DNA of 39,494 nucleotides from an uncultured Bacteroidota bacterium (GTDB lineage Bacteria > Bacteroidota > Bacteroidia > UKL13-3): NCBI GenBank assembly GCA_903910445.1, contig CAIVZR010000106.1:1-39494 (forward strand). The letters run 5' to 3'. The notes beneath the pieces are model-generated. The model worked only from the letters and a program-made list of their open reading frames with translations, was not told where the DNA came from and did not search any database. The position numbers were made by a program, and so were the translations under genes. Below are positions 3,610 through 6,712 of this stretch, piece after piece (the first letter of the stretch is position 1; each line of letters starts with the position of its first letter).

Positions 3610-3640
3610 GCATCTTTCTTAAAAGGAAGGTGCTTTTTTT
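3610..3640 (+). terminator. rho-independent terminator after the PorT-like gene
   Basis: Stem GCATCTTTC (3610-3618) pairs with GGAAGGTGC (3625-3633) including two G-U pairs, with a TTAAAA loop and a run of seven T. It abuts the stop codon of the convergent mtaB gene. Confidence 0.85.
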
Positions 3641-4946
3641 ATGCAATCACTTCTGATAATATTTGAGCAGAAACGGTGAGGTCGTCATTCAAATCCATAA
3701 TTTGAATTTCATTCAAAGTATTTATACGTTGCTCATTAAAGGCAGTTTTTACTTTGATATAGTTGCGGGTGAAGCCATGCATTACACCATGATCATGATC
3801 GGCTTCCCATAATACCTGATGTGTAGTATTCAGATGTTGCTCATAAAACTCACGTTTCTTTTTATCGCTTAAAATACGAAGCATGGCATTGCGTTCGAAA
3901 CGATCGCGATCGAGCACCCGTCCAGGCATGGCCGCAGCCAGGGTATTGGGGCGTTCACTATAGGTAAATACATGCAAATAAGAAATATCGAGTCCGCTGA
4001 TAAATTGATAAGACTCCATAAAGTCGTCGTACGTTTCTCCTGGCGAACCAACAATAACATCAACGCCAATACAGCAATGCGGCATCACCGATTTTATTTT
4101 GGCTACCCTGCTTGTATATACATCGCGAAGGTAACGGCGGCGCATGAGCTTTAAAACCTTATCACTGCCGCTTTGTAAAGGGATATGAAAATGCGGCACA
4201 AAGCGTTTCGATTGCGCTACAAAATCGATAATTTCATCGGTTAATAAATTGGGTTCTATTGAAGATATTCTGAATCGGGAAATACCATCAATCTCATCCA
4301 AGGCATGAATCAAATCGAGAAATGATTCACCAGTATCATTGCCAAAGTCGCCAGTATTTACCCCTGTAATTACAATTTCATTCACTCCTTGTAAGGCAAT
4401 CGTCTGGGCTTGTTCAATGATTTGAGAGATGCTGGCACTTCTGCTTTTGCCACGTGCCAATGGAATGGTGCAATACGAACAGCTATAATCGCAACCATCC
4501 TGAATTTTCAAAAAAGTACGGGTACGATCGCCAAAGGAATGTGCTGGCATGAAATCGTTTACATCATTGATATCGCAACTATATACTGCACCTTTCTCAA
4601 GTTTGATGAGGTTATTGAGATGGTGTTCCAAATTAAATTTTTCGGCAGCACCCAATACCACATCCACCCCGGGGATATCGGCAATTTCCTGTGGTTTGAG
4701 TTGTGCGTAGCAACCCACCACCGCGATATAGGCATTGGGGTTATAACTCAATGCCTCTTTCACCACGCGTTTGCATTTTTTATCCGCATGTTCGGTTACC
4801 GAGCAGGTATTGATAACATATACATCTGCTCCCGAATCAAACTCCGCTTTCACGAATCCAGCATCATTCATTTTTCGTTGAATAGATGAGGTTTCCGAAA
4901 AGTTGAGCTTACATCCTAAGGTATAAAATGCGACACTTTTTTGCAT
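3639..4946 (-). CDS. mtaB: tRNA t6A37 C2-methylthiotransferase (MtaB type)
   Basis: A 435-residue radical-SAM enzyme of the MiaB/MtaB group, which adds a methylthio group to N6-threonylcarbamoyladenosine at position 37 of tRNAs. The N-terminal UPF0004 domain shows the three cluster cysteines (TLGCKLN, NTCSVTE, VVGCYAQ). The radical-SAM motif Cx3Cx2C is in DGCDYSCSYCTIP near residue 150, followed by the IEP segment. A C-terminal TRAM-like tail is present. The length fits MtaB (about 430-440) and the first residues QKSVAFYTLGCKLN fit this subfamily rather than MiaB. A -7 box TATCTTCG sits only 7 nt before the ATG, so the mRNA may be nearly leaderless. Confidence 0.92.
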   Translation of the reverse strand: MQKSVAFYTLGCKLNFSETSSIQRKMNDAGFVKAEFDSGADVYVINTCSVTEHADKKCKRVVKEALSYNPNAYIAVVGCYAQLKPQEIADIPGVDVVLGAAEKFNLEHHLNNLIKLEKGAVYSCDINDVNDFMPAHSFGDRTRTFLKIQDGCDYSCSYCTIPLARGKSRSASISQIIEQAQTIALQGVNEIVITGVNTGDFGNDTGESFLDLIHALDEIDGISRFRISSIEPNLLTDEIIDFVAQSKRFVPHFHIPLQSGSDKVLKLMRRRYLRDVYTSRVAKIKSVMPHCCIGVDVIVGSPGETYDDFMESYQFISGLDISYLHVFTYSERPNTLAAAMPGRVLDRDRFERNAMLRILSDKKKREFYEQHLNTTHQVLWEADHDHGVMHGFTRNYIKVKTAFNEQRINTLNEIQIMDLNDDLTVSAQILSEVIA

Positions 4947-4961: not shown

Positions 4962-5246
4962 AGAAAAATGGAGGGGAATGGTGGTGCGGCGGTGATTAGT
5001 GATTGGTAAATAGTGAATACAGGATTGGTTGAGATATTAGAGCTAATTATCTAACATCATACTATTTATTCTATGAAGAAGATGAAACACTGAGAAATTG
5101 GGAAGCATTCACATTTTGATGCGTTTTGAAATTATTTTTTTGAATAATTGTAAAAAAACTATCAAGTATTCCCAACCCTTTCTCAAACGGAATGGTTGAA
5201 CAAAATAGTCGTGTTTCGTCGAAAAAAATCACATGAGAATTGAATT

Positions 5247-5292
5247 AACTACAAAGTAGTTCAACAATAATAGCCATAGGTGAAACCTATGG
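5247..5292 (+). repeat. hairpin module, copy 1 (two 3-nt-loop hairpins joined by a linker)
   Basis: AACTAC-AAA-GTAGTT (5247-5261), linker CAACAATAATAG (5262-5273), then CCATAGGT-GAA-ACCTATGG (5274-5292). Both hairpins have perfect stems and 3-nt loops. The same module occurs inverted at 5436-5482. Confidence 0.85.
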
Positions 5293-5310
5293 AAAATTGA
5301 TGTTCTGTAT

Positions 5311-5331
5311 TTCAACCCCAAAGGGGTTGAA
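5311..5331. repeat. isolated 9-bp hairpin between the two modules
   Basis: TTCAACCCC-AAA-GGGGTTGAA is a perfect 9-bp stem with a 3-nt loop. A related but imperfect hairpin (GAACC..CTTCC..GGTTC) lies at 5399-5415. Confidence 0.8.
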
Positions 5332-5435
5332 CAAATTCAATCTAAATATTCCAGTTTTCCTTCCATTATTGAAATGTAATTTTATTTAAGAAAATGTTGA
5401 ACCCTTCCAAGGTTCTTTCTTGGGGGCATTGTTAA

Positions 5436-5482
5436 CCATAGGTTTCACCTATGGCTATTATTGTTCAACTGCTTCGCAGTTG
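5436..5482 (-). repeat. hairpin module, copy 2, inverted
   Basis: Read on the minus strand: CAACTGC-GAA-GCAGTTG (5482-5466), linker AACAATAATAG, then CCATAGGT-GAA-ACCTATGG (5454-5436). Relative to copy 1, one base pair in the first stem is changed on both sides (A-T to G-C), so pairing is kept. The GC-GAA-GC core is the sequence known to form an unusually stable DNA mini-hairpin. Confidence 0.85.
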
Positions 5483-5578: not shown

Positions 5579-6712
5579 ATGCGTGTATATTTTGATAATG
5601 CGGCAACGAGCCCTTTAGCACCAGAGGTTATTGAGGTAATGTTGGCAATGATGAAAAACCAATTTGGGAATCCTTCTTCTATTCATAAACATGGTAGAGA
5701 AGTGAAGACTGAAATTGAAAAAGCGCGTAAAACCATTGCACATTTTTTAAATTGCAGCCCAGGTGAAATATTCTTTACCAGTGGAGGTACGGAAGCCGAT
5801 AATATGGCATTGCGTTGCAGTGTCGACGATTTACATGTGAAGCATGCCATCACCTCTCCTATTGAGCACCATGCGGTATTGCATACACTGCAGGAATTAG
5901 CACAGAAGGGCAAAATTACCTTGTCGCTTGTAAATGTATTGCCATCAGGACATATCGATTTAGATGATTTAGAATCATTATTGAAAGCACACCCGGGTAG
6001 CTTGGTATCGTTGATGCATGCCAATAATGAAATTGGAAATATATTGGATATCGATCGTGTATCTGAATTGTGCCAACAGTACCAAGGTATTTTTCATAGC
6101 GATACCGTTCAAACTATTGGGCATTACCGAATTGATTTAAAGAAAACCAAAGTGCATTTTATCGCCTGTGCTGGACATAAGTTCAATGGTCCTAAGGGGA
6201 TAGGGTTCATCTATATTAACAGTGATTTGAAAATTCATCCATTTATTACTGGAGGTGCACAAGAGCGCAATATGCGTGGGGGTACCGAAAATGTTTACGG
6301 TATTGTAGGATTGGCAAAAGCGATAGCACTTGCCGATCAAGAGATGGAAGCACAACAAGAATATATCAGCGGTTTGAAACAATACATGCTCACCCAATTG
6401 AAATCTAATTTCCCTGAAATTCGATTTAATGGCGATGCCGAAGGACGCAGCTCATACTTAGTACTTAATGTATGCTTCCCGCCATCCCCAGTGAGTGAGA
6501 TGATGTTATTCAAACTAGATATCGAAGGCATCAGTGCCAGTGGTGGTAGTGCTTGTAGCAGTGGCAGCGATATTGGTAGTCATGTTTTAGGTGCGTTGAA
6601 TGTGCCCGAATCATGCAGTAATGTTCGTTTTAGTTTTGGCAAGCACAATACCAAAGAAGAGATTGATTTCGTGATAGAAAAGTTGAAAGCGATGTTAGCT
6701 CCTACCAACTAA
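5579..6712 (+). CDS. cysteine desulfurase (IscS/NifS family)
   Basis: A 377-residue class V PLP enzyme that removes sulfur from cysteine as a persulfide for Fe-S clusters or thionucleosides. The N-terminus VYFDNAATSPLAPEV, the TSGGTEADNMA segment, the PLP lysine in AGHKFNGPKG (about Lys201), the RGGTEN motif and the catalytic cysteine in GGSACSSGSDIGSH (about Cys325) are all present. The short length and CSSGS loop fit class I (IscS/NifS) proteins. It stands alone without iscU or suf genes. It ends 1 bp from the stop codon of the convergent M28 peptidase gene. Which of the IscS, NifS or tRNA-sulfur roles applies cannot be decided here. Confidence 0.93.
   Translation: MRVYFDNAATSPLAPEVIEVMLAMMKNQFGNPSSIHKHGREVKTEIEKARKTIAHFLNCSPGEIFFTSGGTEADNMALRCSVDDLHVKHAITSPIEHHAVLHTLQELAQKGKITLSLVNVLPSGHIDLDDLESLLKAHPGSLVSLMHANNEIGNILDIDRVSELCQQYQGIFHSDTVQTIGHYRIDLKKTKVHFIACAGHKFNGPKGIGFIYINSDLKIHPFITGGAQERNMRGGTENVYGIVGLAKAIALADQEMEAQQEYISGLKQYMLTQLKSNFPEIRFNGDAEGRSSYLVLNVCFPPSPVSEMMLFKLDIEGISASGGSACSSGSDIGSHVLGALNVPESCSNVRFSFGKHNTKEEIDFVIEKLKAMLAPTN

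Follow-up and report, generated by a model that had tools for sequence, protein, structure and literature searches.

The window studied here, a stretch of 39,494 nucleotides that forms contig C106 of the 3.43-Mb, 107-contig draft genome of an uncultured Bacteroidota bacterium, holds an inverted pair of hairpin modules that is very probably a gene-less mobile element. We give a probability of about 80% to the reading that this feature is a gene-less copy, similar to a REPIN or a MITE, which is mobilised in trans by an IS200-type HUH transposase resembling those of 'subclass 1.2'. Modules of the same family enclose a gene for such an enzyme on another contig, and the best reading of this enzyme is that it works like a RAYT without being one.

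Facing modules in the window and their dispersed copies

Two facing hairpin-linker-hairpin modules with further hairpins between them had been described in an earlier note on this DNA, and its details were right (5247-5292 and 5436-5482). The inverted arms (5247-5292 and 5436-5481; 46 nt, 91% complementary, 143 nt apart) are the longest of six inverted pairs within 400 bp returned by a search of the window with 12-nt seeds. Each module joins an outer hairpin, H1, to an inner one, H2, through the linker AACAATAATAG (5263-5273 on the + strand, 5455-5465 on the - strand). H2 is identical in both modules; the left and right H1 differ in one pair with both of its bases changed, A-T in the left and G-C in the right, and the GC-GAA-GC core stands in the right H1, both as the note had it. 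Two more hairpins lie between the arms, one perfect and one imperfect. The pair is flanked by a radical-SAM/UPF0004 gene (3639-4946, - strand), which we take to be of the MiaB type, and by a class-V aminotransferase gene (5579-6712, + strand). Its parts are as follows:

5208-5246, + strand: left-end outer conserved stretch common to left-type units (consensus of 22 such units; boundary approximate)
5247-5261, + strand: left H1 hairpin AACTAC-AAA-GTAGTT (covariance model)
5262-5273, + strand: linker with the ATAG foot at its end (an RTAR tetranucleotide, the proposed guide)
5274-5292, + strand: left H2 hairpin CCATAGGT-GAA-ACCTATGG
5313-5329, + strand: left H3 hairpin CAACCCC-AAA-GGGGTTG (weak model match at 5313-5336)
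5330-5398, no strand: gene-less interior (likeness to the tnpA-bearing copy not significant)
5399-5415 (approximate), - strand: right H3 hairpin, imperfect in the window copy
5436-5454, - strand: right H2 hairpin
5455-5465, - strand: right linker with the ATAG foot at its end
5466-5482, - strand: right H1 hairpin CAACTGC-GAA-GCAGTTG (covariance model)

An Rfam search and a tRNA scan of the window found nothing. The 11-nt linker by itself is not beyond chance in the window (4 matches at up to 1 mismatch, against 2.1 expected from shuffles), but the whole modules are: a covariance model from 27 modules, which include the sister unit on contig C18, matches the two of them at E values of 6.5e-15 and 1.7e-12.

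The module is not confined to the window. Exact occurrences of the linker number 30 in the genome, against 4 for the reversed control, and a 276-bp query returned 106 matching pieces, the weakest of which are chance. The stretches read around these matches contain 47 units in 22 places (model R1, applied to the whole genome, counts 49), with a convergent pair in 17 of the places. Because some places have identical end sequences (C10 with C18, C33 with C20), they probably meet at contig ends, and the true number would be nearer 20. There are 26 left-type and 18 right-type units, with 3 unclear. All units except one (46/47) are extragenic, in that no ATG open reading frame of at least 300 nt overlaps them, frames cut by the ends of the stretches being uncounted. 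Conservation outside H1 extends for about 55 nt in left-type units and for only about 8 nt in right-type units, as far as a conserved ACTTC. The suggestion that the pair is a small non-autonomous element or a REP-like pair is supported in kind.

The stems of further copies also vary by pairs changed on both sides. Pairing statistics of the alignment modules are inflated, since those modules were found by their hairpins; the fairer test uses 38 distinct units of this genome that were picked by their H2 sequence, with H1 unselected. Here H1 pairs in 81% of cells and H2 in 97%. At H1 columns 6 and 12, 20 of the 38 units have A-U, 12 have G-C and 1 has C-G; for one pair of H2 the counts are 35 A-U and 3 G-C. 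Three measures, namely paired cells, cells with both sides changed and covariation score, were higher than in any of 500 shuffles; 21 of the 500 attained the count of pairs altered on both sides, and 175 attained the count of pair types.

In the C60 copy the interior is similar to the 3' end of tnpA, scoring 58 against at most 53 in 200 shuffles. The same kind of shuffle comparison gave no significant match to the gene-bearing copy for the interiors of the C46, C63 and C67 copies or for that of the window copy; for the latter, a tnpA origin has no significant support, 16 of 500 shuffles matching as well.

Other repeats were observed next to some units. A larger hairpin, CAACCCTTCCGG ... CCGGAAGGGTTG, takes the place of H3 at L074:1218-1420, L091:956-1189 and L078:1160-1330. 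Another repeat, CCACGGGTAGAAACCCTGTCG ... CACAGGGTTTATACCCGTGG, with a repeated tail around CTGTATCACATACCAT, comes right after the unit's H3 at L069:1390-1580 (C1) and L085:1070-1320 (C91). Palindromic repeats such as GCTAATCTTTGATTAGC and CTTCGTACGTCTTCAGACTACGAAG adjoin the units in the flanks of L088 (C67) and L082 (C20), and may belong with the hairpins of the C60 class 2 gene described below.

An IS200-type transposase enclosed by the same modules

The genome has seven matches to PF01797. One of them, a 148-aa Y1 (HUH) gene at C18:237-677 (- strand), has two left-type units on one side and one right-type unit on the other, which is the arrangement that the earlier note had proposed to look for. 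Its expectation of a Y1 HUH transposase is borne out as far as the enclosed gene goes, and from this arrangement we infer recognition itself. Where the note had left the type open between REP/RAYT and IS200/IS605, the enclosed enzyme is not a classical RAYT; it is of the IS200 type with 'subclass 1.2' motifs. The protein reads DDHIHI, WQ and YVKNQKEHH, and all 12 aligned members, the C18 protein among them, share Y114, Q118, H121 and H122. The Y---NP motif of class 2 TnpA_REP is absent from it, Y---Q--HH standing instead. Against the NCBIfam IS200/IS605 model NF033573, whose cut-off is 55 bits, it scores 67.5 bits, and no match to REP_Tyr_transpos came up at E≤0.001. The motifs given for subclass 1.2 are DH[IV]H, WQ and YIKNQKEHH, with 'no' entered under REP (PMC6006769); with these motifs and a length of about 148 aa, the C18 protein is a putative member, as judged by motifs alone.

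A profile of 12 clade members matches IS608 TnpA (2a6m) at 1.9e-10. Among the chains ranked by Foldseek, an AlphaFold2 model of the Pedobacter puniceum clade member (mean pLDDT 87.5) aligns with ISDra2 TnpA (Z 14.8, 2.3 Å over 105 residues), IS608 TnpA (Z 14.2, 3.0 Å over 107) and the REP-associated tyrosine transposase 4er8 (Z 10.5, 2.8 Å over 113). The predicted fold indicates kinship with IS200/IS605 TnpA, not activity.

The C18-type gene is single in the genome, the nearest of the other Y1 matches being 56% identical; this single gene may be a collapsed repeat in the draft assembly. No unit of the window family was found in the stretches read around the Y1 matches of C11, C43, C6, C25 and C60:1-2500, and on C92 the nearest such unit is 5.7 kb from the Y1 match. 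The C25 gene, a clade member (L073; also L100 in G003), has other hairpins and no R1 match: its hairpins are nested, with CTTTGATG-TTC-CATCAAAG inside a CATAGGT...ACCTATG stem. That hairpin gave two matches in its own genome, both at C25. The sister species (G003) has two beside its gene, a further exact copy elsewhere and another with 2 mismatches, and G002 has one with 2 mismatches. A second dispersed family built on it was rejected, as in its own genome it occurs only beside that gene. Class 2 motifs (NHIH/NHLH and YIHNNP/YIHQNP, of the type given for subclass 2.6 in PMC6006769) are found in two of the seven Y1 genes, C92:48638 and C60:817. The class 2 gene of C60 (C60:234-1430, L037; NHLH, YIHQNP) is accompanied within 700 nt by ten hairpins whose sequences differ from those of the window family and fall into two kinds, CGAAGTC...GACTTCG and GCAAATC...GATTTGC; they form another, distinct REP-like set in this genome. 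The one of C92 (L036:1261-1806; NHIH, YIHNNP) has no hairpin within 700 nt.

Homologues were searched in 58 relatives and 395 genomes of the class. In the latter, 24 genomes hold 28 genes at E≤1e-42; together with two from relatives (G003 and G014) they make up 30 clade loci, whose proteins split from 22 sister Y1 proteins with support of 100/100 in a tree whose bootstrap is not fully settled. The usual order at a clade locus is H1, linker, H2, H3, gene, H3', H2', H1', with different stems. Some loci (L122, L127) show it almost in full on either side of the gene, others in part; L068 has H1-H2-H3 on one side and a repeated H3-H2 on the other. Within 300 nt on either side, the 30 clade loci have 134 hairpins against 0.92 expected from shuffles, and the 22 sister loci have 25 against 0.84; at least one flank hairpin is present in 30/30 and 10/22 loci respectively. 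The control set counts 23 loci, of which L075 was left out of the hairpin comparison as it had no tblastn match; all 23 served as the control of model R1. Three sister Y1 genes outside the clade (L118, L121 and L107) have 4-5 flank hairpins each, so that related systems may exist there.

Modules for alignment came from 76 readings, of which 39 were kept and 8 listed as dropped; the remainder, mostly reverse-strand readings, were left out for their loop. Alignment A1 retained 27 of the 39, without shifted loops, the linker-length variants of L133, near-duplicates, one reverse-strand reading and two others. Model R1 was trained on 27 modules outside the further loci considered next.

A protein-only search of named genomes, limited to the best 80 of a larger number of matches, gave 79 loci, and with six repeats of earlier loci removed 73 remained. 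The tree was built without these loci, whose proteins are 43-66% identical to that of C18. They have 239 flank hairpins against 3.05 expected, with at least one in 69 of the 73 (none in L212, L222, L235 and L276) and hairpins on both sides in 39 of the 65 loci with full flanks; at a distance of 1.2-1.8 kb, 14 hairpins were counted in 75.8 kb. Among its best 300 of 310 matches, R1 hits at least 69 of the 73 loci at E≤0.01, often near -106 to -58 before the gene and +46 to +96 after it, and those without a match there are L253, L261, L265 and L278. The 23 control loci gave four weak matches, the best at 4e-6. By their titles the records are mostly Bacteroidota (for example Pedobacter, Algoriphagus, Belliella, Chryseobacterium and Labilibaculum), with some from Balneola, Chlorobiota, Cloacimonadota, Verrucomicrobia and planctomycetes; many are metagenome-assembled genomes, in which binning errors are possible. 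Similar genes are held by Chryseobacterium genomes (L236, L237 and L240), and a 'RayT' transposase gene near abeS is mentioned in an account of that genus (PMC11194056). Two plasmid records contain homologues of 37-41% identity at E≤1e-20.

Two features of the module recur. One selection, made on two hairpins with a GNA loop but not on the foot, comprises 71 modules from 50 of the 103 loci; 52 of them have RTAR as the tetranucleotide before H2 and 2 have GT[AG]G, and in 64 a T closes the H2 loop on its 5' side. Another, made on a TA[AG] foot and a T-A pair closing the loop but not on the loop itself, gives 95 loops from 54 of the 103 loci, and 77 of these loops are GNA. The similarity of H2 stems follows protein similarity only weakly (Mantel r 0.16, reached by 38 of 2000 permutations, with 54 of the 103 loci usable), a weak sign of stem-protein coevolution.

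Occurrence in relatives and competing explanations

At E≤0.01, R1 finds 49 units in the genome of the window and, among the 58 relatives, 48 in G009, 32 in G003, 31 in G039 and 30 in G021. All 11 genomes with a clade gene carry 3-49 modules; of the 47 without one, 17 have any module and 7 have one at E<1e-9 (Fisher 9e-5 and 1e-7). Since R1 was trained partly on these genomes, the association is supportive, not independent. Strong modules occur in seven relatives in which a clade gene was not found; in one of them, G012, the end of a matching gene lies at the edge of a contig. The only clade gene of G003, with its 32 modules, is of the C25 and not the C18 type.

The empty-site comparison proposed in the earlier note brought out presence and absence between sister species, with imprecise breaks. 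Ten sites of this genome were compared with G003. The element is common to both at five (C34, C83, C90, C92 and the first C89 site, which is split over two contigs in G003), absent from G003 at four (C46, C60, C63 and C107), and at the second C89 site the comparison gave no decision. At the four sites the breaks fall some 35-180 nt beyond the outermost hairpins. At C60, 47 nt of different sequence stand in G003; at C63 its flanks meet without a gap and the difference of 413 bp exceeds the element; at C46 the difference is flanked by a 9-nt direct repeat, which suits deletion as well as insertion. Given breaks outside the hairpins and the other sequence at C60, absence in G003 fits a loss of the element there as well as a gain here, and no precise empty site or insertion junction was found among the ten. 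At the window site, G003 keeps only a degenerate right half, and G001, G002 and G004 offer no readable empty site, the sequence upstream of the aminotransferase gene being different.

With these data, three other explanations can be weighed. The hairpins could be the normal end structures of an ordinary IS200/IS605 insertion sequence, the short copies arising by MITE-like internal deletions. The enzyme shares its TnpA sequence profile, fold, and HUH and Y motifs with IS608 and ISDra2, and the C60 interior resembles the tnpA 3' end more than any of the shuffles does, yet we find this explanation unlikely. IS608-type ends have one hairpin each, whereas those here have several in mirror-image order. 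No multi-copy complete element was seen in this genome, where one C18-type gene stands against 47 units and four interiors are without significant match to the gene-bearing copy. IS200/IS605 elements insert next to a fixed short target without duplication, a point on which the sites compared with G003 gave no precise junction. Subclass 1.2 is described as mostly without terminal IS200 structures and as not sharing IS properties; subclass 1.1 is given a mean of 4.8 copies at 99.4% identity (PMC6006769).

A classical REP/RAYT system, with the window pair as a REPIN served by a class 2 TnpA_REP, would account for inverted, extragenic and dispersed hairpin pairs, for units that also flank one gene, and for a tetranucleotide foot 5' of the hairpin; the motifs at C92 and C60 indicate that class 2 enzymes are present in the genome. 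We nevertheless hold it to be quite improbable: the enclosed gene passes the IS200/IS605 model and differs in enzyme class and Y motif, the class 2 genes have other hairpins (C60) or none within 700 nt (C92, with the nearest window-family unit 5.7 kb off), and the foot is mostly RTAR, rarely GT[AG]G. The paired H1-H2 module with its 11-nt linker and the smaller number of copies are further differences. The system would act like REPIN/RAYT yet fails two defining features, Y---NP and GT[AG]G. With MITEs the family shares short, gene-less copies with inverted ends, probably spread by a gene-bearing relative; the partner enzymes of MITEs are DDE transposases, whereas the one here is of HUH type. 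As to the target-site duplication of MITEs, the comparison with G003 gave the 9-nt direct repeat at C46, which fits a deletion too. That the hairpins serve the host, in transcription termination, mRNA protection or chromosome structure, and spread passively would suit their extragenic position, and such roles have been credited to REPs (PMC3733652). The symmetry about the gene in a transposase clade across many genera, the far smaller number of hairpins at sister Y1 genes and the presence/absence between sister species make this a very remote prospect.

Proposed mechanism and implications

The preferred reading remains that of a gene-less copy mobilised in trans by the IS200-type enzyme. H1, H2 and H3 would fold once the locus becomes single-stranded, as may happen on the lagging strand. 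A TnpA dimer from the C18 gene, acting in trans, would bind the GNA-looped H2 and its 5' RTAR foot; the foot would guide the choice of a nearby cleavage site, and cutting and joining would proceed through the tyrosine of Y---Q--HH. In this way short inverted pairs would be copied or moved to places between genes, the part that RAYTs are believed to play for REPINs, and the window copy, lacking a gene, would depend on TnpA in trans. A guide tetranucleotide 5' of the hairpin is described for IS608, ISDra2 and TnpA_REP (PMC8266576), and by analogy the RTAR foot is likely a guide. By the rule given there, in which CT is selected by A3 and G4 of the tetranucleotide, the ATAG foot of this family would then predict cleavage at CT, and ATAA feet would predict TT; the conserved right end begins ACTTC.

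The C18 protein is like subclass 1.2 in its DH[IV]H, WQ and Y---Q--HH motifs, length of about 148 aa, low copy number and occurrence in Bacteroidota (PMC6006769). Unlike that subclass as listed, which is without REPs, the clade has hairpin-module flanks and dispersed copies, and the reported lack of REPs and terminal structures is contradicted for this one clade. The sister loci mostly agree with the published description, flank hairpins being absent from 12 of the 22. In the open PMC literature searched, we found no report of REP-like repeats for subclass 1.2. The repeats of the window family thus go with an IS200-type protein group for which their like is reported absent.

We lean towards the view that an IS200-type clade of Bacteroidota and some neighbouring phyla reached the REP/REPIN way of life separately from RAYTs, with low copy number, mirror-image multi-hairpin ends, an RTAR foot replacing GTAG and species-specific stems on trans-mobilised intergenic copies. 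Such a clade may have been overlooked because published scans required GT[AG]G feet, as the REP scan in PMC6006769 did. The way REPs spread is described as still unsettled (PMC8266576). If the view is true, a REP-like system with an IS200-type enzyme, its own foot and fast-changing stems would provide a second natural experiment, in which the guide hypothesis becomes testable (RTAR against GTAG). As class 2 Y1 genes occur in the same genome, one with its own hairpin set, both kinds can be compared in one cell. It would also propose a role for a transposase subclass described without IS or REP features, and account for a class of hairpin repeats that interrupt this draft assembly.
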